From Patulibacter medicamentivorans (GTDB lineage: Bacteria > Actinomycetota > Thermoleophilia > Solirubrobacterales > Solirubrobacteraceae), in NCBI RefSeq assembly GCF_000240225.1, contig NZ_AGUD01000004.1, positions 1 to 61,856 on the forward strand: a DNA stretch of 61,856 bases, written 5' to 3'. A program made the translations under genes and the position numbers. The notes under the pieces were generated by a model. That model ran no database searches, had not been told where the DNA came from, and saw only the letters and a program-made list of their open reading frames with translations. Shown piece after piece: positions 26,417-51,713 of the stretch (position 1 is the first letter of the stretch; each line of letters opens with the position of its first letter).

Positions 26417-26432
26417 CTGTCGGTTCACACAG
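26417..26432 (+). promoter_or_regulatory. Island motif copy 1 (CTG-N10-CAG dyad), upstream of SDR
   Basis: CTGTCGGTTCACACAG agrees with the island consensus CTGTCGGTTCCGCCAG at 13 of 16 positions, with intact outer CTG/CAG. It is 165 bp before the GTG of the SDR gene. Confidence 0.55.
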
Positions 26433-26597
26433 TTCGCGTTGCCGTCGCGGCGCCCATGCGCCAGATTGCTGATCGACGTCTGGATGCACGCGGGGAGGCC
26501 GAGCCACGCCGATGTCGCTCCACGGCGACGGGAGTGGCGAGAGCGGGCGCGCGTCCTCGCAGACGAACCACCACCTCGACCCGACGGAGACCAAGAC

Positions 26598-27338
26598 GTG
26601 CTCGAGACCGGGCTCCAGGACAAGATCTGCCTCGTCACCGGCGCGGCAAGCGGCATCGGTCGTGCCTGTGCGGAGATTCTCGAAGGCGAAGGGGCGACGC
26701 TCGTCCTCACCGACCGCGACTCCGCGGGCGTCGAGGCCGTCTGCCCCGGCGCGACGACCGCGCTTCGCCGGGCGGGGGACCTGAGCGACCCGGCGTTCGT
26801 CACGTCGCTCGCCGCGGATCTGGAGCACCGGTTCGGGAGGCTGGACGTCGCGGTCCACATGGCCGGGGTCTACACCACGACGTCCTGGGACGAGGTGGGC
26901 GACGACGAGTGGCGGTCCGTCCTCGACGTGAACCTGCACGGCAGCTTCCTCGTCGCCCAGGCGGCGATGCGCCTGATGGGCCGGGAAGGGGGACGGATCG
27001 TCCTCTGCGGCTCGTACGCGGCCCGGACCGGCGGGCTCCGGGCGAGCGCCGCGTACGCCGCGGCGAAGTCCGGGGTCATCGGCCTGACGCGGCATCTGGC
27101 GCTGCACGGCGGCCCCCTGGGGATCCGCGTCAACGCGATCCACCCGGGGATGATCGAGACGCCGATGCTCTCCGTCCTCGACGACGAGGCGCGCGAGGAC
27201 GGCCGGAGCCGCTCGCCGATGGGCCGGCTGGCGACGGCGGAGGAGGCGGCGCGGATGGCCGTCGTCCTGGTGTCCGACCTCGCCAGCTGGGTGCAGGGCG
27301 TGCAGCTCGACGTCAACGGCGGAATGCACATGGCGTGA
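26598..27338 (+). CDS. SDR family oxidoreductase
   Basis: 246 aa from GTG 26598, which has a GGAG ribosome binding site 8 bp upstream. TGAASGIGRACAE cofactor loop, Asp-ending strand LVLTDRDS (NAD preference), catalytic Ser in LCGSYAA, YAAAKSG (YxxxK), and WVQGVQLDVNGG near the end. First gene of the island's first unit (this SDR, a deleted SDR, a quinone-oxidoreductase-like gene). It probably oxidises a hydroxyl group of the island's substrate; specificity unknown. Confidence 0.88.
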   Translation: MLETGLQDKICLVTGAASGIGRACAEILEGEGATLVLTDRDSAGVEAVCPGATTALRRAGDLSDPAFVTSLAADLEHRFGRLDVAVHMAGVYTTTSWDEVGDDEWRSVLDVNLHGSFLVAQAAMRLMGREGGRIVLCGSYAARTGGLRASAAYAAAKSGVIGLTRHLALHGGPLGIRVNAIHPGMIETPMLSVLDDEAREDGRSRSPMGRLATAEEAARMAVVLVSDLASWVQGVQLDVNGGMHMA

Positions 27339-27393
27339 CCGGTTCGCGCGGTGACGCCGCGCGGCCGGGCGCCGACGAGCGAGAGGAGACGTC

Positions 27394-27660
27394 ATGAGCG
27401 AGGAGCGACAGGTGGTCGCGGTCACCGGCGCGACCAGCGGCATCGGCAGGGCGCTCGCGACGCACCTGGCCCAGGAGGGATGGGTCGTCGAGCTCGCGCG
27501 GCTGGAGGACTACGGCGACGGCGAGCTCGAGTCGATCCTCGTGACGAACGGCGAGCCCGGCGAGATCGCTCAGGCGGTCGCGTTCCTGCTCGGTCCGACG
27601 TCGTCGTACGCGACGGGCACGGCGCTCTCCGTCGACGGGGGCGTGATGACGGGTGTCTGA
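27394..27660 (+). CDS. Internally deleted SDR remnant (88 aa)
   Basis: The reading frame is intact, with GGAG before ATG 27394. The product joins an SDR N-terminus (VVAVTGATSGIGRALATHLAQEGW, residues 8-31) directly to an SDR C-terminus (GEPGEIAQAVAFLLGPTSS, then GTALSVDGG). About 160 residues are missing, including NNAG, the catalytic Ser and YxxxK. It cannot be an active SDR of the known type. An in-frame deletion that keeps translation running into the next gene (8-bp overlap) is the simplest reading; a small regulatory or structural role is possible but unsupported. Confidence 0.7.
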   Translation: MSEERQVVAVTGATSGIGRALATHLAQEGWVVELARLEDYGDGELESILVTNGEPGEIAQAVAFLLGPTSSYATGTALSVDGGVMTGV

Positions 27661-28675
27661 CGCAGGCGGGACCCCGCGGCCGCCCGCGGCGGCCGCGCCC
27701 TCGTCTCGCCGGATCGTGGAGCTCCGCGCGTTCGGGGAGCCCGAGGTCATGTCGTGGGCGACGGGCGAGCTGCCGGACCCGGACCCGGACGAGGTGGTCG
27801 TCGACGTCGCCGCGATCGGCGTGAACTTCGGCGACACGATGGTGCGACGCGGCGAGTACCGCCGCGACCAGCCACTGAGCTTCGTCCCCGGCTTCGAGGT
27901 CGCCGGACGCGTCCGCGCGGGGCCGGCGGACGGCCCGCCGGTCGGGACCCCCGTCGTCGCGTTCCTCGAGGACGGCGGCGGCTACGCCGACACCGTCGTG
28001 GTGCCGGCGAGCCACGTCTTCCCCGTCGTCGACGGGATCCCGCTCGAGGTCGCCGCGGGGCTCTTCACCCAGGGCGTGACGGCCTGGTACGCGGCCACGC
28101 GCTACGGCCCGGTCGGGCCGGAGGGCGCCGTGCTCGTCCACGGCAGCGCCGGTGGTCTCGGCGCGCTCTGCGTCCAGCTCTACCGCGAGCGCGGTGCGCG
28201 GGTCATCGCGACGGCGTCGACCGCGGCGAAGCTCGACGTCGCCCGGCGGCATGGAGCGGCGGCGACCACGCTGGCCGACCCCGCGACGCTCACGAACGAG
28301 GTCCGGCGACTCACCGACGGCCGCGGCGTCGACGTCGTCGTCGACGGCGTCGGCGGGGCGCTGTTCGCCCCGAGCATGCGCGCGCTGGCGATGAACGGCC
28401 GCTACGTGGTCGTCGGGTCCGCCAGCCAGGAGCCCGCGAACGTCGACGTCCGCGGGCTGATGCCCCGCGGCCAGAGCATCGTCGGATTCGTCGTGGCGCG
28501 CGTCGCCGAGCTGGACCCGCGCGAGCCGGCGGCGGCCTTCGCCGCCGTCCAGGCGGCGTGGCTCGAGGGGCGGATCGCGCCGGAGATCCGCATGCTCCCG
28601 GCGGCCGACGTCGTCGCCGCCCATCGCGCGCTGGAGGCCCGGACGACCACGGGCAAGCTCGTGCTCGTGCTGTGA
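27653..28675 (+). CDS. NADPH:quinone oxidoreductase / zinc-independent MDR family protein
   Basis: 340 aa, GTG start overlapping the stop of the SDR remnant by 8 bp. GroES-like N-terminal half (VGVNFGDTMVRRGEY-type region, VPGFEVAGRV) and Rossmann half with VLVHGSAGGLGALCVQL (AxxGxxG-like). No Cys/His zinc ligands are evident, as in quinone oxidoreductase and enoyl reductase MDRs. It probably reduces an enone, quinone or enoyl thioester. A strong hairpin follows 4 bp after the stop, ending this unit. Confidence 0.88.
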   Translation: MSDAGGTPRPPAAAAPSSRRIVELRAFGEPEVMSWATGELPDPDPDEVVVDVAAIGVNFGDTMVRRGEYRRDQPLSFVPGFEVAGRVRAGPADGPPVGTPVVAFLEDGGGYADTVVVPASHVFPVVDGIPLEVAAGLFTQGVTAWYAATRYGPVGPEGAVLVHGSAGGLGALCVQLYRERGARVIATASTAAKLDVARRHGAAATTLADPATLTNEVRRLTDGRGVDVVVDGVGGALFAPSMRALAMNGRYVVVGSASQEPANVDVRGLMPRGQSIVGFVVARVAELDPREPAAAFAAVQAAWLEGRIAPEIRMLPAADVVAAHRALEARTTTGKLVLVL

Positions 28676-28678
28676 GCC

Positions 28679-28768: not shown

Positions 28769-28784
28769 CTGGCGGTTCCAACAG
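28769..28784 (+). promoter_or_regulatory. Island motif copy 2, upstream of the HyuA-like gene
   Basis: CTGGCGGTTCCAACAG agrees with the island consensus CTGTCGGTTCCGCCAG at 13 of 16 positions and keeps the full CTG-N10-CAG dyad. A TTGGCA hexamer that could be a -35 follows 6 bp later (28791-28796). The HyuA-like ATG is 132 bp downstream of the motif. Confidence 0.6.
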
Positions 28785-28916: not shown

Positions 28917-31028
28917 ATGAGCACCGTTGCACCGGAAACCTCGAGGGACCAGGGCCTCACGACCCTGATCGGCGTCGACGTCGGCGGCACGCACACCGAC
29001 ATCGCGGTATCGACCCCGACCGGCCTGGTCCGGGGCAAGGCCCTGACGTCGCACGACGAGTACAGCCGGGGGATCCTCGAGGCGATCGCGGTCGCCGGGG
29101 AACGGCTCGACCTGAGCCTCGCCGAGACGCTCGGCCAGACCGAGCAGATCGTGCTGTCGACGACGGTCGTCACCAACGCGCTGACGGAGCTCCGCGGCGC
29201 GAAGGTCGGCGTGCTCATCACCCAGGGCTTCAAGGACACCTTCCGACTCGCCGGCGGCGCCCGGCAGCCGGTGATGGACGACCAGGCGCACCGCAACCCG
29301 CCGGACCTCGTGCCGCGCTCCTGCATCGTCGAGATCCCGGAGCGCGTCCTCTCCGACGGGACCGCGGCCGTGGCGCTCGACGAGGACGCCGTCCGGATGG
29401 CGGTGCGGCAACTTCGTGACGAGGGCGTCGACGCGATCGCCGTCTGCTTCCTCTGGTCCTTCAAGGTCCCCGGCCACGAGCAGCGCGCGCGGGAGATCAT
29501 CGAGGACGAGTGGCCCGAGGTCTTCACCTCGCTCTCCAGCGAGGTCTATCCCGTCATCCGCGAGCACGAGCGCTTCTTCAGCGCCGTCTTCAACTGCTTC
29601 TGCCAGCCCGCGGCGAGCATCCTGCTCGACACGCTCCGCGATCGCCTGGACAGCGAGGGCTTCGCCGGCGAGCTGACGATGTTCTCGGGCGCCGGCGGCG
29701 TCATCCCGGTGGAGACCGCGCGTCGCCTGCCCGTCCTGCTGCTGGCATCCGGGCCGGCCGGTGGTGTCGCGGGCGCGATCCACCTGGCCGAGAGGATGGG
29801 CCACGAGAACATCATCGTGACCGACATGGGCGGCACGAGCTACGACCTGTCGCTGGTCGAGGACCGCCGCGCCGCCATCACCCCGCGGATCTCGGTCGCC
29901 GGCCTCGACACCGGCATCAGCATCGTCGACGTCCTGTCCGTCGGGGCCGGCGGCGGCTCGATCGTCTGGATCGACGAGCGCGGCGTCCCGCAGGTCGGAC
30001 CGCACAGCGCCGGGTCGATGCCCGGACCGGCGTGCTACGGCCGCGGCGGCGAGCGGCCGACCGTGACGGACGCGGCCGTCGTCGCCGGCCTGATCGATCC
30101 GGCCGGGTACCTGAACGGCCGCATGAGCCTCGACCGCGAGGCGGCGGTGCGGGTGGTCGGCGCGTTCGGCGCGAAGCTCGGCTGGACGCCGAACCAGGCC
30201 GCCAACGCCATCCTCGACCTCACGGTGACGAACATGGCCAACGCGACGCGCTCGGTCAGCGTCGAGCGTGGGTACGACCCGCGCGAGTTCGCGATGTTCG
30301 CCTACGGCGGGACGCTGCCGCTCTTCGCCCCCCGGATCTGCGACGCGCTCGACATCACGCGGGTCGTGCTGCCGGCCAACAGCTCCGTGTTCTGCGCCTT
30401 CGGGCTGCTGACCGCCGACTTCGTCCGGCGCTACTCGACCTCGGTCGACGTCACGCTCGGCGCGGACGTCGACCCCACGGCCATCAACGAGATCCGCCGG
30501 GGCCTCGTCGAGCAGGCCCGGACCGAGCTCGCGCAGGTCGGTCTCGACCCCGATCGCGCCGAGCTGGAGTGGGAAGCCGGCGTCCGCTTCGCCGGACAGG
30601 TGTGGGAGATCACGGTCCCGCTCGCCGACGAGGACCTGACGACCGCGTCGATGACGGCGATGGCCGCCGGGTTCCCGGCGACGTACGAGCGCTCCTACGG
30701 CGAGGGCACGGCGTGGGAAGGCTCCGAGGTCCTGCTCGCGAACCTGACCCTCCGCACCCGCGTCCCGCGACGCAACCCCACGCTCGCGACCCCGCCGCCG
30801 GGCGACCCGGACGTCGAGGCGGCGCTGAAGGGGCGTCGCCGGGCACTGCTCCCCGGCGCCGACGAGCAGACCGAGATCCCGGTCTACGACGGCAACCGCT
30901 TCGCCGAGGGGCTGACGGTCAGCGGGCCGGCGATCGTCGACGAGCACGACACGACGCTCTTCATCCCGCCGTCGTGGTCGTGCACCCGCGACCACATGTC
31001 GAACTACAACCTGAAGAAGGAGGGCTGA
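28917..31028 (+). CDS. Hydantoinase/oxoprolinase A family protein, acetone-carboxylase beta-like
   Basis: 703 aa. ASKHA phosphate loop IGVDVGGTHTDIAVS (about 17-31), second motif TDMGGTSYDLSLV, signatures VGAGGGSIVWID and MPGPACYGRGGERPTVTDA. It would activate substrate or bicarbonate with ATP and transfer it to the B subunit encoded next. The B subunit carries an acetone-carboxylase gamma-like zinc ribbon, so an ATP-dependent ketone carboxylase (acetone/acetophenone type) is the better guess over hydantoinase. Purine-rich ribosome binding site (GAGAGAGA) before ATG 28917. Stop overlaps the next start (TGATG). Confidence 0.88.
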   Translation: MSTVAPETSRDQGLTTLIGVDVGGTHTDIAVSTPTGLVRGKALTSHDEYSRGILEAIAVAGERLDLSLAETLGQTEQIVLSTTVVTNALTELRGAKVGVLITQGFKDTFRLAGGARQPVMDDQAHRNPPDLVPRSCIVEIPERVLSDGTAAVALDEDAVRMAVRQLRDEGVDAIAVCFLWSFKVPGHEQRAREIIEDEWPEVFTSLSSEVYPVIREHERFFSAVFNCFCQPAASILLDTLRDRLDSEGFAGELTMFSGAGGVIPVETARRLPVLLLASGPAGGVAGAIHLAERMGHENIIVTDMGGTSYDLSLVEDRRAAITPRISVAGLDTGISIVDVLSVGAGGGSIVWIDERGVPQVGPHSAGSMPGPACYGRGGERPTVTDAAVVAGLIDPAGYLNGRMSLDREAAVRVVGAFGAKLGWTPNQAANAILDLTVTNMANATRSVSVERGYDPREFAMFAYGGTLPLFAPRICDALDITRVVLPANSSVFCAFGLLTADFVRRYSTSVDVTLGADVDPTAINEIRRGLVEQARTELAQVGLDPDRAELEWEAGVRFAGQVWEITVPLADEDLTTASMTAMAAGFPATYERSYGEGTAWEGSEVLLANLTLRTRVPRRNPTLATPPPGDPDVEAALKGRRRALLPGADEQTEIPVYDGNRFAEGLTVSGPAIVDEHDTTLFIPPSWSCTRDHMSNYNLKKEG

Positions 31029-33265
31029 TGTCCACCGACACCGCGCCGGCGACGGGCACCGTCGCCCCCGCCACCCCGGACTACGACGTCCTCGGGGTCG
31101 AGGTTCACCGGAAGGCGATGGACGAGATCGCCCGCGAGATCGGCATCACGCTCGTCCGGACCTCGGGCTCGCCGGTGGTCACCGAGGCCAAGGACCTCAG
31201 CTGCGCGATCCTCGACGAATCCAGCGAGCTCGTCGGCTTCTCGGGCTTCGTCGGATTCCACGTCTCGACCTCCGCGCTGGGCGTCGAGGCCGTGCTGCGC
31301 AACTACGACCTGGCGGACATCCGCCCGGGGGACGCGTTCATCGCGAACGACCCGCACTCGTCCGGGGCGATCCACCAGGGCGACGTCGGCGTGATCATGC
31401 CCTACTTCCACGACGACGAGCTGATCGGCTGGGGGTACGTCAACGCGCACCTGCTGGACGTCGGCGGCTCCTCGGTCTCGGGGTTCGCCCCCGAGGCGCG
31501 CGAGAGCTTCGCCGAGGCGCTCGCGTTCCCGGCCGTCCGCTTCGTACGCGACGGCAAGCTCAGCCATGACTGGGCGCTGTTCATCGCCAACAGCGTCCGG
31601 GTCCCGGTCCCGGTCCTCAACGACCTGCGCTCCATGATCGCGGCGCTGAACGCCGGCAAGCGGCGGCTGGATGCGGTGATCGCGTCTCACGGGCTGCAGA
31701 CGCACCGGGAGTACTGCCGCATCAACAAGGCCCTCTCCGAGCAGCTGATCCGCTCGCGCATCGCCGAGCTGCCCGACGGCGAGTACGTGTCGAAGGAGTG
31801 GATCGAGTACGACGGCCACGGCACCGCCGACCTCTACGAGCTCGGCGTCGCGATGACCGTCCGCGGCGACGAGATCGACCTGCGCTTCCACGGCGTCGAC
31901 CAGGTGCCGGCCTACGTCAACGGGGCCCGGCCGTCGGTCCTCGGCAACGCGATGAACGCCCTGCAGACGGTGTTCATCCCCGACGTGCCGGTGAACGCCG
32001 CGCTCTGGCGGGCGATCCACTTCGACCTCGGCCCGGCCGGCTCGATCGTCAACTCGGTCCCGCCGGCCCCGGTCTCGCAGTCGCACATGGAGTGCGGGAT
32101 GCGGATCACGCGCCTGATGTCCGACGTGCTCGCCCAGGCGATGGCCCTGTCCCCGTCCGACCGCCTGCGCAGCCGGGTGGCCGGGCAGCCCAACAACGGC
32201 ATCGCCACGTGCACGCTGACGGGCGCGGACCGGCGCACCGGGCAGCCGATCGTCATCTTCCCGATCGCGCCGACCGTCGGTCTCGGTGGCCCCGCGCAGT
32301 CCGTGTCCGACGGCGTGGACACGTACTCCGGGCAGTTCAACATCGGCACCCGGATGGCGGCCGTCGAGGTCGACGAGGCAGCCGGCCCGATGGTGACCCT
32401 CTGGCGCCGGATCGAGGCATCCAACGGCGGCGCGGGCCAGATGCGCGGTGGGCAGGGCATGACCAGCGCGCTCGCCATGCGCGGGATCGACTCGATGACG
32501 GGCACGGCCTTCAACAGCTGCGCCGAGGTCCCCCCGCGGGGCTCCGGCGGCGGGCAGCCGGGGGCCGGATCCGACTACCACGTGGTGCGCGGCAGCGAGG
32601 TCAACGACCTGCTCGATCGCGGTGCCATGCCGACGGTCGAGACGCTCGGCGGGAGCACGCAGCGGATGCCGTCGAAGACCGGGACGCTGACGTTGCGTGA
32701 GGGCGACGTCTTCGTGGTCGCCAGCGGCGGCGGGGGCGGCCTGGGCGATCCGCTGCTCCGCGACCCCGCCGCCGTGGCCAAGGACGTCGCCGACGGCTAC
32801 ACCGACGAGGCGGCGGCGCGGGAGGTCTACGGCGTCGTCCTGGACGGCGCCGGCGCGGACGAGGCGGCCACCGACGCGCAGCGCCTGAGGATCCGGACCG
32901 CGCGGATCGGGGCCGTCCCGCCGCGCGAGATCCGCGACGCCGCCCGGCGCGAGATCGGCGTCGCGGTGCGAGTCGTGGCCGGCCGCTGGACGTGCGGGTG
33001 CTGCGGCGAGGACCTCGGCGACGTGGACGACAACTACCGCGCGGCGTGCGTGGCGACGAGCGGCAGCGCCGCGTCGACGCTGGGGGCCCGCGGGACGCGC
33101 CTGCGGTCGCGCACGGTGGGGCCGGACGTCCTGCTCACCGAGTACTTCTGCCGGGGGTGCGGCCTGAGCGTCCGCGCGGACGTCGGGGTCGAGGGCGACG
33201 AGGTCGTCCCCGCGCCGCGCCTGACCGCCGAGGGGCGCCGGCTCGCGGATCGCGCCGCGACCTGA
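31028..33265 (+). CDS. Hydantoinase B-like (acetone-carboxylase alpha-like) protein with fused C-terminal zinc ribbon
   Basis: 745 aa; HyuB proteins are usually 520-600. Residues 18-600 are the HyuB fold (LVRTSGSPVVTEAKDLSCA, FIANDPHSSGAIHQGDVGV, GQPNNGIATC, GGGGGLGDPLLRD). After a helical linker, residues about 650-745 form a small domain with WTCGCCGEDLG and YFCRGCGLSVRAD, a CxCC...CxxC zinc ribbon like the separate gamma subunit of acetone carboxylase. The fusion suggests one polypeptide doing the work of alpha plus gamma. Pairs with the A protein just upstream. A strong terminator follows 32 bp after the stop. Confidence 0.85.
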   Translation: MSTDTAPATGTVAPATPDYDVLGVEVHRKAMDEIAREIGITLVRTSGSPVVTEAKDLSCAILDESSELVGFSGFVGFHVSTSALGVEAVLRNYDLADIRPGDAFIANDPHSSGAIHQGDVGVIMPYFHDDELIGWGYVNAHLLDVGGSSVSGFAPEARESFAEALAFPAVRFVRDGKLSHDWALFIANSVRVPVPVLNDLRSMIAALNAGKRRLDAVIASHGLQTHREYCRINKALSEQLIRSRIAELPDGEYVSKEWIEYDGHGTADLYELGVAMTVRGDEIDLRFHGVDQVPAYVNGARPSVLGNAMNALQTVFIPDVPVNAALWRAIHFDLGPAGSIVNSVPPAPVSQSHMECGMRITRLMSDVLAQAMALSPSDRLRSRVAGQPNNGIATCTLTGADRRTGQPIVIFPIAPTVGLGGPAQSVSDGVDTYSGQFNIGTRMAAVEVDEAAGPMVTLWRRIEASNGGAGQMRGGQGMTSALAMRGIDSMTGTAFNSCAEVPPRGSGGGQPGAGSDYHVVRGSEVNDLLDRGAMPTVETLGGSTQRMPSKTGTLTLREGDVFVVASGGGGGLGDPLLRDPAAVAKDVADGYTDEAAAREVYGVVLDGAGADEAATDAQRLRIRTARIGAVPPREIRDAARREIGVAVRVVAGRWTCGCCGEDLGDVDDNYRAACVATSGSAASTLGARGTRLRSRTVGPDVLLTEYFCRGCGLSVRADVGVEGDEVVPAPRLTAEGRRLADRAAT

Positions 33266-33353: not shown

Positions 33354-33369
33354 CTGTCGGTTTCGGGAG
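33354..33369 (+). promoter_or_regulatory. Island motif copy 3, upstream of the ABC binding-protein gene
   Basis: CTGTCGGTTTCGGGAG agrees with CTGTCGGTTCCGCCAG at 13 of 16 positions. It lies between the terminator and the SBP gene, 103 bp before the ATG. Confidence 0.6.
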
Positions 33370-34621: not shown

Positions 34622-34625
34622 CCGT

Positions 34626-34667
34626 CGGTCGGCGGGGAGCGGTCCGCCGACCGCGCCCCGCCGACCG
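34626..34667. repeat. Very stable intercistronic hairpin between SBP and ATPase genes
   Basis: Outer arms CGGTCGGCGGGG (34626-34637) and CCCCGCCGACCG (34656-34667) pair perfectly. Inner arms GCGGTC (34639-34644) and GACCGC (34649-34654) continue the stem after one mismatch, closing on CGCC. This gives an almost unbroken 18-19-bp stem 4 bp after the SBP stop. Such structures commonly protect the SBP transcript or attenuate read-through, giving more binding protein than transporter. Confidence 0.7.
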
Positions 34668-34687
34668 GTCGACGAGGAGCAACTGAC

Positions 34688-37291: not shown

Positions 37292-37307
37292 CTGTCGGTT
37301 CCGGGCG
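37292..37307 (+). promoter_or_regulatory. Island motif copy 4, upstream of the acyl-CoA ligase
   Basis: CTGTCGGTTCCGGGCG is identical to the island consensus CTGTCGGTTCCGCCAG in its first 12 bases and differs only near the end. A TAGCAT -10-like hexamer lies 23 bp downstream (37331-37336). The ligase GTG is 127 bp downstream. Confidence 0.6.
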
Positions 37308-40511: not shown

Positions 40512-40541
40512 AAGCCGTGGAGATCGAGCACTAGGTTCTCC

Positions 40542-42528: not shown

Positions 42529-42540
42529 GAAGGCACCGTG

Positions 42541-42771
42541 ATGGAGATCACCGTCGAGAACGGCACCGCCGACGACGAGATCGAGATCCTCGAGATCGCG
42601 GTCGAGGTCGGACAGGAGGTGGCCGAGGGCGACCTGCTCGTCGAGGTCGCCACCGACAAGGCGAACATGGAGATCGTCGCGCCGAAGGCCGGGCGCGTCG
42701 CCGAGATCCGGGTGGCCGACGGCGACGACGCTCCGGGCAACGCCGTGCTCCTCGTCCTCGAGGACCTCTAG
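42541..42771 (+). CDS. Stand-alone lipoyl domain protein (detached E2 N-terminal domain)
   Basis: 76 aa, a single biotinyl/lipoyl domain. EVATDKANMEI carries the lipoylated Lys in the DKA hairpin, followed by APKAGRVAEIRVADGD. E2 proteins normally carry this domain fused to a peripheral-subunit-binding and a catalytic domain; here it is a separate gene. AGGAAGG ribosome binding site lies 7 bp before ATG 42541 (GTG 42538 is too close). The E2 catalytic gene follows after 2 bp. Confidence 0.88.
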   Translation: MEITVENGTADDEIEILEIAVEVGQEVAEGDLLVEVATDKANMEIVAPKAGRVAEIRVADGDDAPGNAVLLVLEDL

Positions 42772-42773
42772 CG

Positions 42774-44368: not shown

Positions 44369-45141
44369 GCGTCACCGCGACCCCCGACGAGCTCCAGGCC
44401 GTCCTGCTGGCCCGGGACTTCCGCGCCGACGACCGCGTGGTCCAGATCGGGGCGAACCTGCCGACGGCTCGCGCCGGGGCCCTGATGGCGGGCCTGAGCA
44501 CCCACCCGGACCTGCGCGTCGTCATCGGGCTGTCCGTCGACAACCTCGCCACGGCGGCGAGCCTCCCGGCGGTTCGCGAGCTGTCGTTCCACGCGCGCAG
44601 CGCCTTCGAGGGCGAGGCCGTCATGGACCAGGGCACGGTCTTCGACGACGTCGCCAGTCCCGACGTCTTCTTCGTCGGGGGCCTGCAGGTCGACCGTCGC
44701 GGCAACGTCAACCTCGTCGGCATCCCGGACGGCGACGGGGGCTGGAAGGTCCACGGCCCCGGAGCCGTGGCGCTGGCGACGATGAGCACGAACTGCCGCG
44801 GCTACTACATCCTCATGCCCGCGCACTCGCCCCGGGTCTTCGTCGAGCGCGTCGCGTCGATCACGGCGCTCGGCGACCGCACCCGACGGGCCGAGCTGGG
44901 GCTGCCCGGGGGCGGCCCGCGCCTGCTGCTCTCGCCGCTGGGCGTCTTCGACTTCAACGACCACGGCGACATGCGCGTGGTCAGCCTGCATCCGGGCGTC
45001 TCGCTCGACGACGTCCAGGCCGCCACCGGCTTCGCGCTCGACGTGCCCGAGGCCGTGCCCACCACCGCGATGCCGTCCCCGTCCGAGCTCGACCTGCTCC
45101 GCGAGCGGGTCGACCCGGGCGGCCTCCTGCGAGCGACATGA
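44365..45141 (+). CDS. CoA-transferase family subunit B (IpdB-like)
   Basis: 258 aa, GTG start overlapping the subunit A stop. ANLPTARAGALMAGLSTHPDLR near the N-terminus and GGLQVDRRGNVNLVGI with LLLSPLGVFDF later are typical of glutaconate CoA-transferase B / IpdB relatives. Forms a heterodimer with subunit A. Its stop overlaps the start of the first MaoC-like gene (ATGA). Confidence 0.85.
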   Translation: MSVTATPDELQAVLLARDFRADDRVVQIGANLPTARAGALMAGLSTHPDLRVVIGLSVDNLATAASLPAVRELSFHARSAFEGEAVMDQGTVFDDVASPDVFFVGGLQVDRRGNVNLVGIPDGDGGWKVHGPGAVALATMSTNCRGYYILMPAHSPRVFVERVASITALGDRTRRAELGLPGGGPRLLLSPLGVFDFNDHGDMRVVSLHPGVSLDDVQAATGFALDVPEAVPTTAMPSPSELDLLRERVDPGGLLRAT

Positions 45142-45590
45142 CGTCCCGCGACGTCGACCAGAAAGAGCACATGACAGACACGCTGTCGAACATCGCCTTC
45201 GACGATCTCGTCGAGGACGACCGCAAGGGCCCGTACGTCGAGCAGATCACCGCGGACCTCGCCGGCCGGCTCGCCGGGCCGATCGGGCAGCCGCACGACG
45301 TGGCGCTCGCGCCGCCCGCGGTCTTCCCGGTGATCTTCCTGAAGGCCCTCCGGGCGTCGATGGGCGGCATCCCCGCCGGATCGGTCCTGGCCAAGCAGGA
45401 GCTCCGGTTCGGTGAGCCCGTGCCGGTCGGCGAGTCGGTGCGCACCACCACGTGGATCGGCGAGAAGTACGTGCGGCGCGAGCGGCCGTACGTCGTGATC
45501 CGCTTCGACGTCCGCCGCGCCGACGGCGCGTTGGCCGTCAGCGGCAGCAAGACCATCATGTGGCCCACGGGCCCGGGAGACCAGGCATGA
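45138..45590 (+). CDS. MaoC-like hydratase subunit (N-terminal FAS1-like dehydratase type)
   Basis: 150 aa. Hotdog-fold pattern (PPAVFPVIFLKALRASMGG, SVLAKQELRFGEPVPVGESV, then VVIRFDVRRADGALAVSGSKTIMW) without the GDxNPxH active-site motif. It matches the non-catalytic half of two-gene MaoC hydratases, whose catalytic half is the next gene. ATG 45138 overlaps the previous stop; an internal Met (45171) is possible but leaves the overlap pattern unexplained. Confidence 0.78.
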   Translation: MTSRDVDQKEHMTDTLSNIAFDDLVEDDRKGPYVEQITADLAGRLAGPIGQPHDVALAPPAVFPVIFLKALRASMGGIPAGSVLAKQELRFGEPVPVGESVRTTTWIGEKYVRRERPYVVIRFDVRRADGALAVSGSKTIMWPTGPGDQA

Positions 45591-45976
45591 CCGACCGTCG
45601 ATTCCCCGGCATCAGCGACGTCGTCACCCAGGAGAGCATCAACGCGTACGCGGAGCTCTCCGGCGACTACAACCCGCTGCACGTCGACCTCGAGATCGCT
45701 GCGGCCTCGGAGTTCGGCGGGACGATCGCGCACGGCCCGATCTCGTTCCAGTCGCTGTTCCGCTCCCTCACCGAGGGGCTCGACGTCGAGGCGCTCCCGG
45801 CAGGGAGCTCGGTCAGCGTGACCTATCGCGCTCCGGTGCGCCCGGGCGATGCCGTCACCGCGCGGATCGTGCGCCCCGCGGACGAGTCCGCGGCGGACGG
45901 CGCGCTCGCGGCGTCCTGCGTGAACCAGGACGGCGTGACCGTCCTGTCGGGCAGCGTGCTGCTCCCGCCGGCCTGA
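45587..45976 (+). CDS. MaoC family (R)-hydratase, catalytic subunit
   Basis: 129 aa. The hydratase-2 motif YAELSGDYNPLHVD with catalytic Asp and His is intact (about 21-34), followed by GGTIAHGPISFQSLF and VTYRAPVRPGDAV. With the preceding gene it should form a heterodimeric enoyl-CoA hydratase acting on a bulky or unusual acyl-CoA, as in steroid side-chain ChsH1/ChsH2. Last gene of the E1 operon. Confidence 0.85.
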   Translation: MTDRRFPGISDVVTQESINAYAELSGDYNPLHVDLEIAAASEFGGTIAHGPISFQSLFRSLTEGLDVEALPAGSSVSVTYRAPVRPGDAVTARIVRPADESAADGALAASCVNQDGVTVLSGSVLLPPA

Positions 45977-46015: not shown

Positions 46016-46037
46016 GGCGCCCTACCGGTCGGTCGGC

Positions 46038-46262: not shown

Positions 46263-46278
46263 CCGTCCGACCGGACGG
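46263..46278. promoter_or_regulatory. Perfect dyad next to the response-regulator ribosome binding site
   Basis: CCGTCCG-AC-CGGACGG has perfect 7-bp arms and is followed by GTAGGGAGGAG, the Shine-Dalgarno. The trailing CGGTAG echoes the TetR-type half-site CTACCG/CGGTAG. Confidence 0.5.
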
Positions 46279-46294
46279 TAGGGAGGAGTACAGC

Positions 46295-46969
46295 ATGCGG
46301 ACCATGATCGTTGATGACCACGACCTCGTCAGGCACGGGATCCGGTCGGTGCTCGCGGGTGACTCGCGCGTTCGCGTCGTCGCCGAGGCGTCGACGGGCG
46401 GATTGGCGCTGCGCCAGGCGGCGGCGGCGCAGCTCGATCTCGCGCTCGTGGACCTCCGGCTGCCGGACATGCGGGGCGAGGACGTCGTGCGCGGCATCCT
46501 CGAAGTCCGCCCGCAGGCCGCGATCGTCGTCGTGAGCGCCTATCTGAGCGAGGACACGGTCCGCGGCGCCCTCCAGGCGGGCGCCATCGGCTACGTGACC
46601 AAGACGGCGGGACTCACCGAGCTGCGCACCGTCATCGACCGCGTCGTGCGCGGCGAGCGAGGCAGCGCCGAGGTCACCGGGCACCAGATCGTCGAGCGCC
46701 TGCACTCGCTGGGTTCGGAGATGAGCGGGCGCCCGAGCCTGACCCCCCAGCAGGAGCGCGTCCTGGAGCTCGCCGCGGCCGGATGGACCTACCAGCAGGT
46801 AGGCGCGAAGCTCTTCATCACCGAGTCGACGGTGCGATTCCACGTGCAGAAGATGAAGCGCAAGTTCGCCGCGCGGACGAAGACGGAGCTGATCGCGACC
46901 GCGATCCGGGCCGGAGTCCTCGCGCCGGCGGCCGAGGCAGGCCCGGTCTGCCTCGAGCGGGCGTCCTGA
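46295..46969 (+). CDS. LuxR/NarL family response regulator
   Basis: 224 aa. Receiver domain with acidic pair VDDHD, phosphoacceptor Asp53 in ALVDLRLPDM and Lys103 in VTKTAG. C-terminal LuxR HTH (about 150-210): LTPQQERVLELAAAGWTYQQV, then ITESTVRFHVQKMKRKF. GGGAGGAG ribosome binding site before ATG 46295. Followed 21 bp later by a histidine kinase gene, so the two form a system. As the only LuxR-type HTH in the island it is the prime candidate to bind the repeated CTG-N10-CAG motif. Confidence 0.9.
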   Translation: MRTMIVDDHDLVRHGIRSVLAGDSRVRVVAEASTGGLALRQAAAAQLDLALVDLRLPDMRGEDVVRGILEVRPQAAIVVVSAYLSEDTVRGALQAGAIGYVTKTAGLTELRTVIDRVVRGERGSAEVTGHQIVERLHSLGSEMSGRPSLTPQQERVLELAAAGWTYQQVGAKLFITESTVRFHVQKMKRKFAARTKTELIATAIRAGVLAPAAEAGPVCLERAS

Positions 46970-46990: not shown

Positions 46991-48031
46991 GTGCGCGCGA
47001 CGGACGGCAGCCGAGGGACGGCGGTGGGCGGGAGAGACGAGCCCGTCTCCTTCGGGGCGTCGCTCGCGTCGCTCGCGCTGCGGCTCGTCGCGCTTCGTGC
47101 CGGCAGCGCGACGCCGCCGCAGTGCGACCACGCGCTCGCCGCGCTCGCCGGTGCGGCGGACTTCGCGCGCCTCGACGTGATCCTCGACGGGTTCGTCCTG
47201 TCGGCCAGCGCGAGCGGGCGGCGGCGGATGGCGTCCGTCCCGGTCGAGGACGGGGTCGTGCGCGCGCCCGTCCTCGACGTCGCCCAGGCACCGATCGGCC
47301 TCGTGCTCGCACGACCGCGCGAGCGGGGCAACGAGGGCGTCGGGGCGCTCGTGCGCGAGATCGCGGAGACCTGCGCACGGGCCTGGCAGCTCGACCTGGT
47401 CGCTCGCGTCGCGCAGCGGTGGGCCGACGCGATCCACGACGGCCCGGTCCAGGCGCTCTCCGCCGCCGTCCTGCATCTCGGCCACGCCCGCGAGCAGCAG
47501 GAGGCGGGCGGCGACGCGACCGCGACCCTGGCGACGGGGCTGGCGCTGGTCGATCGCGGCCTGGGCGAACTGCGGCTCGCGATCCAGGAGCCGTACGCGG
47601 ACGAGTTCGCGGGCGCGTCGAGCGGTGCGGACGACGACCTGGCGGCGGTCGCGGCCGCCGCGGCCTCCCCCTGGGGCCTTCCGGTGACCTTCGACGCCTC
47701 GGACGCCGCCGTCCAGCGCTACCGGGACGCGGACCCGCGAGCCCGCGACCTCCTCGTCCGGGCGACGCGGGAGGGCGTGGCCAACGCGGCCAAGCACGCG
47801 CCGGCGGGCGGCGCCGAAGTGGTCCTCCGCTCGCCGGGGCGGGGCACCCTCGAGGTCGCGGTGCGCGACTTCGGAGCCACCGGAGCTCCCACCGCGGCCG
47901 CCCTGGCGAGCGGTCACGGCCTGGCGGCCCTCCGGCGTTCGGCGGCCCAGCTCGGCGGCGCTGCGCGTCTCGATCGGGCGGACGGCGCCGGCGGGCTGCT
48001 CGTGGTGCGGGTGCCGGTCAGCCCGGCCTGA
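46991..48031 (+). CDS. Soluble NarL-type sensor histidine kinase
   Basis: 346 aa, GTG start. No TM segment is evident. Residues 45-125 look GAF-like. The phosphoacceptor helix reads WADAIHDGPVQALSAAVLHL (His149, the HDxxxQ type that partners LuxR-family regulators). The ATPase domain follows with N-box REGVANAAKHA and a GHGLAALRR G-box. A cytoplasmic sensor implies an internal signal such as a pathway intermediate. Its last 14 bp overlap the convergent TetR gene. Confidence 0.82.
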   Translation: MRATDGSRGTAVGGRDEPVSFGASLASLALRLVALRAGSATPPQCDHALAALAGAADFARLDVILDGFVLSASASGRRRMASVPVEDGVVRAPVLDVAQAPIGLVLARPRERGNEGVGALVREIAETCARAWQLDLVARVAQRWADAIHDGPVQALSAAVLHLGHAREQQEAGGDATATLATGLALVDRGLGELRLAIQEPYADEFAGASSGADDDLAAVAAAAASPWGLPVTFDASDAAVQRYRDADPRARDLLVRATREGVANAAKHAPAGGAEVVLRSPGRGTLEVAVRDFGATGAPTAAALASGHGLAALRRSAAQLGGAARLDRADGAGGLLVVRVPVSPA

Positions 48032-48635
48032 CCTCGAGCCCGCGGAGCGCGATCTCCGCGAACATGTCCCCGATCTCGTCGGCCCCCATCTCGCCGCCGG
48101 TCTGGAACCAGGTGTAGCCCCAGTTGGCCATGGCGAGGACCGCCTTCGCGGCGATCTTCGGAGGCATGTCCACGAACGCCCCGGAGCGCGTGCCGTCGTT
48201 GATCACTCCCTGGACCATGCGCTCGTAGAAGTCGCGCTTGAGCACGATCTCGCTCCAGCGTTCGCCGCTGAGGGCGCGGTGCTCCGCCAGGAAGACGGTC
48301 ACGCCGTCCTGGTGGCGGCCGACGAAGTCCATCGCGCCCCGGACGATGTCGCGGAGCTTCTCGCTCGGCGGCTTCGACGACGAGAACACGACCATCGTCT
48401 CGGCGATCAGCTCGTCCACCATCTGCTCGTGGATGGCGAACAGCAGGTCCTCCTTCCGGCGGACGTGGTGGTACAGGCTCGGCTTGCGCATCCCGAGCTC
48501 CGAGGCCACGTCCGTCATCGACGCTCCGTGGTACCCGAGCTCGCTGAAGACCTTCGTCGCGGCGGCGATGATGTCCGCGCGGACCGCCTGTGGTTCGCCT
48601 GTGGTGGTGGGCCGCGAGGGCTGCGTCTTGGGCAT
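48018..48635 (-). CDS. TetR family transcriptional regulator
   Basis: 205 aa from ATG 48635, preceded by GAGG at the right distance; ATG 48671 would add 12 residues. HTH (about 25-65): IIAAATKVFSELGYHGASMTDVA and MRKPSLYHHVRRKEDLL, then an all-helical ligand domain (MDFVGRHQDGVTVFLAEHRAL). It resembles TetR regulators of acyl-CoA degradation (KstR2/PfmR-like). CTACCG-type dyads in its own promoter and ahead of the E1-alpha operon suggest autoregulation and control of that operon, with a CoA ester as likely inducer. Confidence 0.85.
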   Translation of the reverse strand: MPKTQPSRPTTTGEPQAVRADIIAAATKVFSELGYHGASMTDVASELGMRKPSLYHHVRRKEDLLFAIHEQMVDELIAETMVVFSSSKPPSEKLRDIVRGAMDFVGRHQDGVTVFLAEHRALSGERWSEIVLKRDFYERMVQGVINDGTRSGAFVDMPPKIAAKAVLAMANWGYTWFQTGGEMGADEIGDMFAEIALRGLEVRPG

Positions 48636-48694
48636 CGGAGTCCTCGAGAGATGACGATCGGCGGGCGGCACGGGCCGCGATCGGACGGCGTCAC

Positions 48695-48709
48695 GGACCG
48701 ATCGGTAGG
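48695..48709. promoter_or_regulatory. Candidate autoregulatory TetR operator
   Basis: On the minus strand CCTACCGATCGGTCC contains the perfect palindrome ACCGATCGGT and the same CTACCG half-site as the dyads before E1-alpha. It lies 60 bp upstream of the TetR ATG. Confidence 0.5.
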
Positions 48710-48750: not shown

Positions 48751-48766
48751 CTGGCGGAACCGCGAG
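48751..48766 (-). promoter_or_regulatory. Island motif copy 6, upstream of the SnoaL-like gene
   Basis: CTGGCGGAACCGCGAG on the plus strand; read in reverse, CTCGCGGTTCCGCCAG matches the island consensus CTGTCGGTTCCGCCAG at 14 of 16 positions. It lies 96 bp before the SnoaL-like ATG, between it and the divergent TetR gene. Confidence 0.6.
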
Positions 48767-48862: not shown

Positions 48863-49321
48863 ATGGATCCCGACGTCGCGCGCATGCTCGCCGAGCGCGC
48901 CTGTGAACGACTGATCATCGAGTACGCGCGCCGCGTCGACTTCGGTGAGGCCTCGCGGATCGCGGAGCTGTTCGTGGCCGACGGCGTGTGGACCGGGGTC
49001 GACCTCCGCCTCGACGGACGGGACGCCATCCGCGAGTGGTTCACGGAGCGCGAGGCGCTCGACCGCCGCGTCTCCCGGCACGTGCACACGAACATCGCCG
49101 TCGAGCTGGAGGTCGGAGGCGACCGCGCTCTAGCCGAGTCGTACCTCGTCAACTACCGTCACGACCGCCGGGGCGCGGACCGGGCGATGCCGGCTCCCGG
49201 CGACATCCCGAAGTACGTCGGCGAGTGCCGCGACACGTTCGTGCGCACCGACGAGGGATGGCGCTTCGCGAGCCGGGACGTCGCCGTCGCCTTCGTGCGC
49301 CCGCGTCGCCCCGTCGCGTGA
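48863..49321 (+). CDS. SnoaL-like / NTF2-fold protein
   Basis: 152 aa. Starts with the helical SnoaL_4 pattern (LIIEYARRVDFGEASRIAELFVADGVW), continues with GRDAIREWFTEREAL and RHVHTNIAVELE, and ends with strands DTFVRTDEGWRFASRDVAVAF. Related proteins include dehydratases, isomerases and dioxygenase beta subunits; no partner is present. GAGAGGA ribosome binding site. It has its own upstream motif and probably acts in the island pathway. Confidence 0.78.
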   Translation: MDPDVARMLAERACERLIIEYARRVDFGEASRIAELFVADGVWTGVDLRLDGRDAIREWFTEREALDRRVSRHVHTNIAVELEVGGDRALAESYLVNYRHDRRGADRAMPAPGDIPKYVGECRDTFVRTDEGWRFASRDVAVAFVRPRRPVA

Positions 49322-49357
49322 GCGTTGCTCCCTGGGCGTCGGCGGCGAGGGCGGGTG

Positions 49358-49373
49358 CTGGCGGAAGCGACAG
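49358..49373 (-). promoter_or_regulatory. Island motif copy 7, upstream of the second ligase
   Basis: CTGGCGGAAGCGACAG on the plus strand; in reverse CTGTCGCTTCCGCCAG matches the island consensus at 15 of 16 positions, the best copy. It lies 60 bp before the ligase ATG. Confidence 0.65.
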
Positions 49374-49433
49374 AACCGCCCGGCGCCTACTGCCCGGAAG
49401 GTACGGTCGCGGTATGAACGGCCGGAGCCAGTG

Positions 49434-50942
49434 ATGGATGCGTCATACCCCCTGCTCTGCGCCTGCGAGCGCTTCGGCGACCGGCCCGCGATCGTCGATC
49501 GGAACGGAACGGTCAGCTTCAGGGAGCTGGAGCGGCGGATCGCGGGACTGTCGGCGGGACTCCGTCGCGCGGGGCACGGCGGCCGCACCGTGGGGATGCT
49601 GCTCGACAACCGGTCCGAGGTCGTCGAGGTGTACATGGCGCTGGCCCGGGCCGGCTGCATCGCGGTCCCGATCAACACCCGCCTCACGGCCGACGAGCAG
49701 GCGTTCGTCGTCGACGACGCCGGCGTCGAGCTGCTGGTCGCCGACGACCAGCAGCTCGACCGGGCCCGGGAGCTGGCCGCCGGGGCCGACCTCGACGTCC
49801 TCCCGCTCGCCGGCGGGTCCGGGTCGAGCATCCACGCGCTGCGGGAGACCGCTCCGGACCCCGTGCCGTCGGACCGCTCCGGACGCGACGACGACGTCGC
49901 GACGATCATCTACACGTCGGGGACCTCCGGCTTCCCGAAGGGCGTCGCGCGAACGCACCGGGCCAACGTCTGGAACGTCGTCAACTCGGCACTGGGCTCG
50001 CCGCGGCGGCCCGGAGAGGTCGAGGTCTTCAACCTGCCGACGTTCGGGATCGGGTTCTTCCACTTCCTGGTCCCCGCGCTGCTCGGCGGGGCGACCGTGG
50101 TCCTCGACGGAGCGTTCGATCCGGCGCGGGCATGGGAGCTCCTGGAGCGCCACCGGGCCACGCGCACCTTCCTGGCGCCGACGATGATCGCCGCGATGCT
50201 GGCCGTCGACGGGCACGAGCACCGCGACCTGACCGCCCTGGAGCTGATCTACACGGCCTACGCCTTCCCCGAGCGCGTGCGTCGGGCCGCCCTCGAGCGG
50301 TTCGGCTCGCGCTTCGCGTTCATGTACGGATTGACCGAGGCGCAGCTGACGTGCAGCGCGCCCGAGCACTTCGAGTCCGACCCCACTGACGTCGGGACGA
50401 CGATGGGCGTCTCGCGCGTGGCCGTCCTCGATCCCGCGGGACGCCCGCTCCCCGACGGCGAGGTCGGCGAGATCGGGTTCGCGGGCCCGAGCGTGATGGC
50501 GCATTACCACGGCAGGCCGGACGCGACCGCCGAGGCCGTTCGCGCTGGGTGGGTGCTCACGGGCGACCTCGGCCGCCGGGACGAGGACGGGCGGCTGCAC
50601 TTCGTCGGCCGGAGCAAGGAGATGATCAAGACCGGCGGGTTCAGCGTCGACCCCGTCGAGGTCGAGAACGCGATCCTCGCGCTGGACGGCGTCGTCGAGG
50701 CGGCGGTCGTGGGCGTCGAGGACGAGTACTGGGGCGAGGCGATCGTGGCCTTCGTCGTCGGCGACGTCCGCCCCGAGGCGGTGACCGGCGTGTGCCGGGA
50801 GCGGCTCGCCCGGTTCAAGGTGCCCAAGCGCGTCGTCGGCGTCGACGCGCTCCCCAAGAACGCAACGGGCAAGATCGAGCGCGGGCGCCTGCGCGCGGCG
50901 GTTCGGAGCGCGGGTGACGAGCCCCTCACGCCGGTCGCGTGA
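49434..50942 (+). CDS. AMP-forming acyl-CoA synthetase (second ligase)
   Basis: 502 aa. A3 TIIYTSGTSGFPKGVARTHR, A5 MYGLTEAQLT, A7 LTGDLGRRDEDGRLHFVGRS, A8 MIKTGGFSVDPVEVENAIL, A10 Lys in KNATGKIERGRL. Closest in layout to medium-chain or aryl/cyclohexane-carboxylate CoA ligases. ATG 49434 follows GGAG by 7 bp; GTG 49431 is too close. Only distantly similar to the ligase at 37.4 kb, so the island can activate two different acids or one acid at two stages. It converges on the isochorismatase-fold gene. Confidence 0.87.
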   Translation: MDASYPLLCACERFGDRPAIVDRNGTVSFRELERRIAGLSAGLRRAGHGGRTVGMLLDNRSEVVEVYMALARAGCIAVPINTRLTADEQAFVVDDAGVELLVADDQQLDRARELAAGADLDVLPLAGGSGSSIHALRETAPDPVPSDRSGRDDDVATIIYTSGTSGFPKGVARTHRANVWNVVNSALGSPRRPGEVEVFNLPTFGIGFFHFLVPALLGGATVVLDGAFDPARAWELLERHRATRTFLAPTMIAAMLAVDGHEHRDLTALELIYTAYAFPERVRRAALERFGSRFAFMYGLTEAQLTCSAPEHFESDPTDVGTTMGVSRVAVLDPAGRPLPDGEVGEIGFAGPSVMAHYHGRPDATAEAVRAGWVLTGDLGRRDEDGRLHFVGRSKEMIKTGGFSVDPVEVENAILALDGVVEAAVVGVEDEYWGEAIVAFVVGDVRPEAVTGVCRERLARFKVPKRVVGVDALPKNATGKIERGRLRAAVRSAGDEPLTPVA

Positions 50943-50954
50943 GGGGGCGGCTTC

Positions 50955-50980
50955 CCGCGCGGGCGCGGGCGCTCGCGCGG
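50955..50980. terminator. Bidirectional stem-loop between convergent genes
   Basis: CCGCGCG and CGCGCGG form a 7-bp stem with a 12-nt loop in the 38-bp gap between the ligase and the isochorismatase-fold gene. Confidence 0.45.
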
Positions 50981-51628
50981 CTACGACCCGCGAAGCTCGC
51001 CGATCAGCTCGTCCGACGTCATGACCCGTGCGAGGTACGGAAACAGCGTGTCCATGGTCATCTGGCTGTACTCGCCGAGCATGCGGTCGGTGCAGTCCGA
51101 GAGAACGATCGCACCGTAGTCCCGCTCGTTCGCGCCGCGAACGGTGAGCGAGACACCGAAGTCCGTGGCGAGCCCGGCGACGATCAGGATCTGGCGCCCC
51201 GTGTTGCGGATGAGCGGCTCGAACTCCGTGCACGGCCACGGGTCCACCCTCGCGTTGTCGACCTCCCACTCGGGTCGCCCGGGTTCAGGCGCGATCTCGC
51301 TGAGCGTCTCGGCCCCCCACTGTCCGCGAACCGCCATGTTCTCCTCGGGGCAGCGAAGCACCCGACCGGTTCCCCGCACGTAGCCCCCGCGTCGGATCTT
51401 CAGCTCAGGGTGGCCCGGGCGAAACGTCTCGTTGTGGTAGATGATCGGGACGTCCAGGGCCCGGCAGGCGTCGATCGTCCTCTTGATCCGCTGCAGCGTG
51501 TCCTCGAACGGCAGCGTGTCCTTCGTGAAGTCGTACCCACGACCCTCGGGGTGCCAGAAGTCGTTCTGCATGTGGGTCAACACGAGGATGACGTCATCGA
51601 CGGGGACGCGGTCGAACTCGTACTCCAT
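50981..51628 (-). CDS. Isochorismatase-fold (cysteine hydrolase superfamily) protein lacking the catalytic triad
   Basis: 215 aa. The fold is clear: VILVLTHMQNDFWHPEG, IDACRALDVPIIYHNE, RQILIVAGLATDFGVSLTVRGA, ERDYGAIVLSDCTDRM. The catalytic residues differ. The Asp before MQ is His19, the nucleophile Cys in the usual TxxCVxxT position is Gly158, and the Lys strand reads EVDNARVDPW. It may be a non-catalytic binding protein or use a different mechanism. It is alone on the minus strand and has an island motif 69 bp upstream. Confidence 0.8.
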   Translation of the reverse strand: MEYEFDRVPVDDVILVLTHMQNDFWHPEGRGYDFTKDTLPFEDTLQRIKRTIDACRALDVPIIYHNETFRPGHPELKIRRGGYVRGTGRVLRCPEENMAVRGQWGAETLSEIAPEPGRPEWEVDNARVDPWPCTEFEPLIRNTGRQILIVAGLATDFGVSLTVRGANERDYGAIVLSDCTDRMLGEYSQMTMDTLFPYLARVMTSDELIGELRGS

Positions 51629-51697
51629 GGGCTTGGGCCTTTCGCTCGATCTGGGTTCGACGGCCCTGTTTGTACGCGTTGGAGGGGCCTCCGGCTA

Positions 51698-51713
51698 CGC
51701 GCGAAAGCGACAG
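51698..51713 (-). promoter_or_regulatory. Island motif copy 8, upstream of the isochorismatase-fold gene
   Basis: On the minus strand CTGTCGCTTTCGCGCG agrees with the island consensus at 12 of 16 positions. It points towards the leftward gene starting at 51628 and marks the right-hand limit of the motif. The rest of the 218-bp gap to 51846 shows no gene. Confidence 0.5.

Follow-up and report, generated by a model that had tools for sequence, protein, structure and literature searches.

A recurrent dyad, its candidate response regulator and a likely TetR box in a putative catabolic gene island of Patulibacter medicamentivorans

Two-component regulators of the NarL/FixJ type that control catabolic operons are represented by TodT, TmoT and StyR, alongside the TdiR and BphT groups (PMC5874301). 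TodT, TmoT and StyR may recognise the sequence ATAAACN4GTTTAT and TdiR another palindrome (PMC5874301); activation by StyR from a site at about -40 is described in PMC2442086. In the present study we analysed a stretch of 61,856 nucleotides from Patulibacter medicamentivorans (contig NZ_AGUD01000004.1, positions 1 to 61,856), called the window in the following, in which a 16-bp inverted dyad recurs upstream of the operons of a putative catabolic gene island. The dyad is quite probably the operator of a LuxR/NarL-type response regulator encoded at 46295..46969 (+ strand), which would activate the catabolic operons, and a TetR-family regulator acting on a separate box would gate the supply of this activator.

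The locus is similar to the TodT/StyR type in combining a two-component regulator of this subfamily with catabolic operons and in the layout of its putative operator, a 16-bp dyad of the form 6-N4-6 with an activating site at about -40 (PMC5874301 and PMC2442086). A putative operator of this layout at about -40 is indeed found in related genomes, calculated from predicted start points; in the window, the -10-like hexamers mostly lie 5-6 bp further away. In contrast to the described systems, the half-site is CTGGCG, the host is an actinobacterium, many operons as well as divergent genes are preceded by the dyad, and the regulator promoter carries a TetR-type box. A second comparison is offered by DevR/DosR of Mycobacterium tuberculosis, a member of the NarL subfamily with divergent targets, whose start-proximal boxes overlap the -35 element (PMC3029386). 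The kinases of the relatives share GAF and HisKA_3 domains with this system, and among the PDB matches of the regulator VraR is the best and DevR the second (9.8e-26). The island dyad presumably differs from the Dev box; further differences are the catabolic instead of dormancy gene set and the additional TetR layer. The TetR-family regulator resembles KstR2, a TetR of coenzyme A (CoA)-dependent catabolism, in its TetR_N and TetR_C_24 domains and in a putative autoregulatory palindrome. The PDB match to KstR2 reaches 2.4e-16, but better matches are uncharacterised TetRs, and the box described here is also present on the promoter of a two-component regulator. Among the papers listed for searches of the open-access literature, which leaves out most subscription journals, none deals with this motif or regulon. 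The mechanism class is a known one, with a new putative operator and gene set and with a TetR layer in addition.

The dyad in related genomes and in the window

Homologous clusters of relatives were found via the TetR, the acyl-CoA ligase 2, the HyuA-like protein and the response regulator of the window. Every inverted dyad with a spacer of 0-12 was counted between the genes of 28 loci belonging to 8 genomes, with the window excluded. At a half-length of 4, the top dyad of the relatives is ACTG-N10-CAGT (8 seen, 0.14 expected), and the third and fourth places are taken by CTGT-N8-ACAG (4 seen, 0.136 expected) and ACCG-N2-CGGT (10 seen, 1.8 expected), the latter being the core of the TetR box treated below. 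The leaders at a half-length of 5 are CTGGC-N6-GCCAG (7 seen, 0.23 expected), ACTGG-N8-CCAGT (4, 0.022) and CTGTC-N6-GACAG (4, 0.028). A count restricted to the window did not recover the motif and was topped by G+C-rich dyads; it was based on a gene map of 38 genes and 9,533 intergenic bases, the poorer of two. Genes were called with our own GC-periodicity and codon scripts, and starts as well as some coding or intergenic labels may be wrong; one relative, G054, gave poor gene calls in one run, and other settings were used there for the dyad counts. As a separate observation, the second-ranked dyad in the intergenic DNA of the relatives' clusters is TAAA-N6-TTTA (3 seen, 0.002 expected).

A symmetric matrix of 22 columns was built from 32 sites of the relatives only (consensus ACTGGCGCTAGCGCCAGT), the 28 loci having been picked by protein orthology plus neighbours. 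Its best match in the window is the dyad 40487..40502 (+) upstream of the E1-alpha operon, with a score of 20.3. It is followed by 49358..49373 (+) upstream of acyl-CoA ligase 2 (15.6), position 26225 (15.6), 48751..48766 (no strand assigned) between the divergent tetR (-) and SnoaL-like (+) genes (12.3), 26417..26432 (+) upstream of an SDR operon (11.6) and 28769..28784 (+) upstream of the HyuA/HyuB-like operon (10.9). Three weaker dyads rank 13, 14 and 19, namely 33354..33369 (+, score 5.4) upstream of the ABC binding-protein operon, 51698..51713 (-, 5.0) upstream of the gene for an isochorismatase-fold protein and 37292..37307 (+, 2.4) upstream of acyl-CoA ligase 1. Without 26225, the eight sites occupy ranks 1, 2, 4, 5, 6, 13, 14 and 19 among approximately 61,800 window positions.

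As a same-genome control, 40 stretches with 793,875 bases, 89,383 of them intergenic, were scanned with the same matrix. At a score of at least 10.5 the control yielded one intergenic and five coding matches, and the 2,208 intergenic bases of the island contain five matches against 0.025 expected; the remaining window adds one coding match. By dyad score alone, 26417, 28769, 40487, 48751 and 49358 stand clear of the 794-kb control and 33354, 37292 and 51698 do not. The repeated dyad is real, and five of its sites are strong. A further dyad at 26225-26240 had so far gone unreported; it equals 49358 in score and falls within an ABC-transporter gene, at its end and 192 bp ahead of 26417.

An earlier note on this DNA had placed copies of the 16-mer at the eight positions. 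All eight were found there in predicted intergenic DNA; they differ in strength, with five strong sites, 33354 and 51698 unproven, and 37292 a weak dyad accompanied by a promoter hexamer. The consensus then proposed, CTGTCGGTTCCGCCAG, fits six of the eight with at most three mismatches and fails for 40487 and 51698; it is a local variant of the general form ACTGGCG-N4-CGCCAGT. At this tolerance the window holds nine matches (1.55 expected by shuffling), with 28769 counted on both strands, and two of the nine, 17641 and 28410, are coding and outside the reported sites. If the palindrome is instead scored symmetrically as CTGTCGG-N2-CCGACAG, the top four 16-mers of the window (12/14) are 26417, 28769, 40487 and 49358, all intergenic; at 11/14, 4 of 15 are intergenic. 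The absence of copies from the flanking intergenic DNA was borne out, with no further intergenic match at a score of at least 7 in the window.

According to the same note, a similar frequency of the motif in unrelated DNA or poor conservation in relatives would speak against a regulon. The bare consensus is indeed common: with at most three mismatches it occurs 46 times forward and 48 times reverse in the genome, fewer than the reversed control (131/114), and the palindrome with at most two mismatches occurs at no fewer than 59 places. Since such counts do not separate signal from background, the matrix and the split into intergenic and coding DNA are needed, and with these the island is enriched. 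An improved pattern matches 32 places in the whole genome, four of them in the window. We inspected 14 of the other 28, of which 13 are coding; the sole intergenic place, C311:15033, has no hexamer at the right position. In nine relatives the motif is kept upstream of homologous operons.

Promoter geometry

At a dyad score of at least 14, we collected 103 pairs of site and gene, 101 from nine relatives and two from the window. The dyad centre lies 40-49 bp before the start codon in 44 of these pairs and 65-79 bp before it in another 27. Loci L191-L207 had been fetched because they hold the dyad pattern, which biases the number of sites per genome and leaves the spacing unaffected. A hexamer of the type KANNNT (for example TAGCGT, TAGGGT or GAGGGT) begins exactly 20 nt beyond the 22-mer in 51 of the 91 flanks on the promoter side; of the 82 flanks that face no gene start, 8 have it. 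At the neighbouring offsets 19 and 21 the promoter-side numbers are 9 and 2, and at all others 0-4. If this hexamer occupies -12 to -7, the dyad centre would be near -42, the position of an activator at the -35 region. In the class with the centre at about -44 from the start codon almost no 5′ leader remains, and the mRNAs are therefore probably leaderless; many members of the 65-79 class have GGAGG-like leaders. Palindromes with starts near -44 on both sides were found at L198:7401, L128:2967 and L094:4183, and judged from this arrangement a single palindrome can serve two divergent genes.

In the window, nine gene-facing flanks were compared, among them those of two weak sites and one from each side of 48751. 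KANNNT at offset 20 is present at 37292 (TAGCAT, 37331-37336) and at 49358 (GAAGGT, 49397-49402), and the hexamer of 37292 outscores practically all background positions (fraction printed 0.0000). Six of the nine flanks have NANNNT at offset 25-26, a register that was noticed post hoc; random intergenic draws, taken as the maximum over offsets, reached six in 0 of 5000 cases. The hexamer of 40487 is TAGGTT (40532-40537). At 26417 and 28769, a -35-like hexamer fits into the space between the dyad and the -10-like hexamer, with a spacer of 17 bp to the latter (TTGCCG-N17-CAGATT at 26439-26467 and TTGGCA-N17-GAGAGT at 28791-28819). No such -35/-10 pair is evident in the relatives, whose dyads border directly on the -35 position. 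The flanks of 33354 and 51698 show no such -10-like hexamer. With a -10 term added to the dyad score, the island sites 40487, 49358, 48751 and 37292 reach 12.0-18.4 and the best place of the control 11.6; one coding place of the window, 11706, reaches 13.3.

The candidate binder and its partners

The response regulator at 46295 consists of a receiver domain (Pfam Response_reg, 3.6e-22) and a GerE-type helix-turn-helix (HTH) domain (2.3e-12). Of 200 other genomes, 9 have orthologs with at least 56% identity; the predicted phospho-acceptor D53 and K103 are invariant in ten orthologs. In an alignment search across the class, the regulator at 1e-60 is confined to one family (10 of 399 genomes), and a search with the single sequence delivered 23 loci with distant regulators of 25-40% identity. 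The stretch ESTVRFH in the HTH is invariant across all 14 aligned regulators, that of G029 being taken from a point approximately 15 nt downstream of its likely start, and close orthologs have a near-identical HTH. For the pattern CTRKCGSWWSCGMYAG, 27 occurrences were counted in the ten regulator-bearing genomes, 9 of which have at least one, and 53 in the remaining 191, of which 43 have at least one. These counts are not independent, because the pattern was drawn from sites in regulator-bearing genomes; furthermore, G074 and G047 fall among the 191 yet hold more distant regulators.

A TetR-family gene that had no place in the earlier account of the island is located at 48018..48635 (-). Its product contains TetR_N (4.2e-13) and TetR_C_24 (2.1e-31) and is 52-70% identical to the TetRs of the homologous clusters. 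Upstream of this gene, all ten ortholog loci carry the likely TetR box CCTACCGNNCGGTAGG with 12-14 of 14 positions (12 in the window), and a dyad scoring at least 14 occurs in one of the ten, L039 of G062 (20.0). Within 120 nt upstream of the response regulator, a box of 11-13 of 14 is present in 9 of 10 orthologs, with single P values of 0.002-0.086. The regulator without a box is that of G029, which lacks a TetR ortholog, and the four more distant regulators have scores of 8-10 only.

In the window, a box (CCGACCGGACGGTAGG, 46267..46282, +) is located just upstream of the response-regulator gene, with a second one at 46021..46036 (+) in the same intergenic region. Two further boxes enclose dyad 40487, one upstream of it (CCGACCGAGCGGTCGG, 40463..40478, +) and the other between dyad and E1-alpha start (CCTACCACTCGGTAGA, 40541..40556, +); a putative promoter is common to dyad 40487 and box 40541. 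Boxes are also found upstream of tetR (CCTACCGATCGGTCCG, 48694..48709, -) and, with a score of at least 12, upstream of ligase 2 (49386). At this threshold, the 4,970 intergenic bases of the window have six boxes, with one more in coding DNA, and the 89,383 intergenic bases of the same-genome control have three. Both motifs, their places, their conservation and the promoter spacing are direct observations. Two side observations concern TetR proteins elsewhere. G029 has seven TetR relatives of 30-35% identity on several contigs, none of them a close ortholog of the TetR of the cluster, and in G063 (G063:C1:536733-537958) a regulator paralog of 53% identity adjoins another TetR (30% identical), so that the pairing of TetR and regulator may recur.

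TetR orthologs (best 59-70%) are present in 8 of the 9 other regulator-bearing genomes, and for this reason co-occurrence cannot choose between the two proteins as binder of the dyad. It was considered whether the neighbouring TetR uses the dyad as its operator, with the response regulator a passenger, which would agree with the joint location of tetR and dyad 48751 in one intergenic region and with the dyad beside tetR in L039. However, all TetR ortholog loci share the different palindrome, and dyads surround the response regulator in G047, where no TetR matches at 1e-20, and in G424, where the only match is 27% identical; in G029 and G074, too, TetRs reach only 27-35%. The regulators of G047 and G424 are 44-46% identical to that of the window. 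Seven dyads (six intergenic) were counted in 56 kb around the first and three in 38 kb around the second, several with the hexamer at offset 20, and 80 kb of G047 away from the regulator contained no match. TetR was therefore dropped as binder of the dyad, and we regard this reading as unlikely.

The dyad might also be bound by a third regulator that acts at the same promoters and whose gene lies in another part of the genome. Sequence alone does not assign a binder, the co-occurrence screen covered the response regulator and TetR, and two regulator paralogs lack nearby dyads. On the other hand, a regulator of the 46295 type is the factor that all dyad-rich clusters examined have in common, also the ones lacking TetR, and the HTH of close orthologs is near-identical, which makes a third regulator improbable in our view. 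If the dyad were a core promoter element of an alternative sigma factor, its fixed distance to the -10-like hexamer would be explained, but it is a symmetric 18-bp palindrome used both ways by divergent genes, the hexamer is of the ordinary TANNNT type, and a shift of 5-6 bp as in the window is a tolerance we would not expect of a sigma factor; this explanation is very doubtful. Chance recurrence in G+C-rich intergenic DNA read with a hand-picked consensus would account for the frequency of the bare consensus, for the failure of the window alone to yield the motif and for 33354 and 51698 within the control range, but against the independent matrix, the same-genome control and the fixed promoter spacing it can practically be dismissed, and for the five strong sites it is very unlikely.

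We conclude that the response regulator at 46295 is the best candidate binder of the dyad. The proposal of a LuxR-type regulator, made before from the ends of the motif, gains support from the dyads near TetR-less regulators and from the fixed promoter geometry. Several observations weigh against this assignment or against parts of the circuit. The dyads of the window are degenerate, and most of their -10-like hexamers are displaced relative to the relatives, as noted above. Two dyad matches were found in 180 kb of G063 control DNA, and around two regulator paralogs of G063, 53% and 47% identical, the 35 and 15 kb inspected were free of dyads. No dyad is present in the 4 kb (G029) and 10.6 kb (G074) inspected at the regulator; the dyads of G029 are on other contigs, and the three of G074 lie about 19-23 kb off on the same contig and are labelled coding. 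G079 holds the regulator and no exact match of the pattern, and the matrix does find sites there. As for the TetR box, five of the ten boxes at the regulator score at most 12 of 14, and single P values are 0.06 and 0.086 in two genomes. Finally, tblastn at 1e-8 gave no match between the predicted kinase of the window and that of G063 or G062.

This kinase, a predicted soluble histidine kinase of 335 residues (47024..48031, +), has diverged from those of the relatives. Only HATPase_c is detected, with 23.6 bits against a Pfam cut-off of 26.4; a stretch IHDGPVQ looks like an H-box, and no obvious membrane segment is visible (maximum 19-residue hydropathy 1.53). In blastp it shows 30% identity over 40% of the G063 kinase. 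A homologous kinase with GAF, HisKA_3 and HATPase_c directly follows the regulator in ten genomes (G063, G070, G054, G062, G079, G087, G095, G029, G047 and G424), these being the genomes readable onward; in G082 and G074 the contig stops at the regulator. Compared to these ten, the kinase of the window looks replaced or strongly reduced. In G063 itself, the kinase is split over two overlapping frames (L095:1646-3591), and the G062 kinase aligns to both.

The catabolic island and the proposed circuit

The genes behind the dyads look like a set for CoA-dependent catabolism. In order of position, they encode an SDR, an SDR remnant and a zinc-type dehydrogenase (26598..28675, +), HyuA-like and HyuB-like proteins (28917..33265, +), an ABC importer with binding protein, double ATPase and permease (33506..37254, +), and acyl-CoA ligase 1 with a small protein without Pfam match and an APH-family protein (37435..40459, +). 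These are followed by E1-alpha, E1-beta, a lipoyl domain, E2, a CoA-transferase pair, a protein without Pfam match and a MaoC-like protein (40565..45976, +), by a SnoaL-like protein with acyl-CoA ligase 2 (48863..50942, +) and by an isochorismatase-fold hydrolase on the opposite strand (50981..51628, -). The closest PDB entries to the CoA-transferase pair are IpdAB and glutaconate CoA-transferase. Clusters of the relatives add acyl-CoA dehydrogenases, enoyl-CoA hydratases and luciferase-like monooxygenases. Among the NCBIfam matches listed, those of HyuA and HyuB, both ligases, E1-alpha, E1-beta, E2, the CoA-transferase alpha subunit, the SDR and the permease are below the cut-offs, and for this reason no pathway is named. 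The earlier claim that the motif ties these enzyme sets into one pathway stood in part: the sites, conserved upstream of homologous operons in nine relatives, speak for a shared regulon, from which co-regulation is presumed, and a single pathway did not emerge.

Two observations concern single genes. The SDR remnant (27394-27660) has 88 amino acids and is matched by adh_short over the first 30 positions and by adh_short_C2 over the last 38, so that the middle of the domain is missing. Ahead of the island, at 21907-26306, a siderophore-interacting flavin adenine dinucleotide (FAD) domain is fused to an ABC exporter half and followed by a second ABC half, which we take to resemble IrtA/IrtB.

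In the circuit we propose, the kinase at 47024, presumably the partner of the regulator, would phosphorylate it, and the phosphorylated dimer would bind ACTGGCG-N4-CGCCAGT next to the -35 region and activate the catabolic operons of the island. TetR would bind its box at its own promoter and at those of E1-alpha and the response regulator; it would thereby repress the regulator pair and the E1 operon, with the remaining operons activated by the regulator. The inducer is perhaps a CoA-linked intermediate. From the DNA we infer the pairing of binders and motifs, the phosphorylation of the regulator, its role in activation and not in repression, and the inducer. We see about even chances that this represents a two-tier circuit of one actinobacterial family, in which TetR gates the regulator and single palindromes drive many operons and divergent, often leaderless promoters at one fixed distance from dyad to -10, and which was re-tuned in the lineage of the window by replacement or reduction of the kinase, by looser dyads and by a -10 that is in most cases 5-6 bp further away.

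With these analyses, a large catabolic cluster of an actinobacterial family, so far uncharacterised, receives a candidate operator, activator and repressor, and the co-regulation of its HyuAB-like, acyl-CoA ligase, E1/E2 and CoA-transferase genes becomes directly testable. The fixed geometry permits the prediction of start points from sequence. Genomes with regulator and TetR, with the regulator and without TetR, and with shifted spacing provide a natural test of how such a circuit is rewired.

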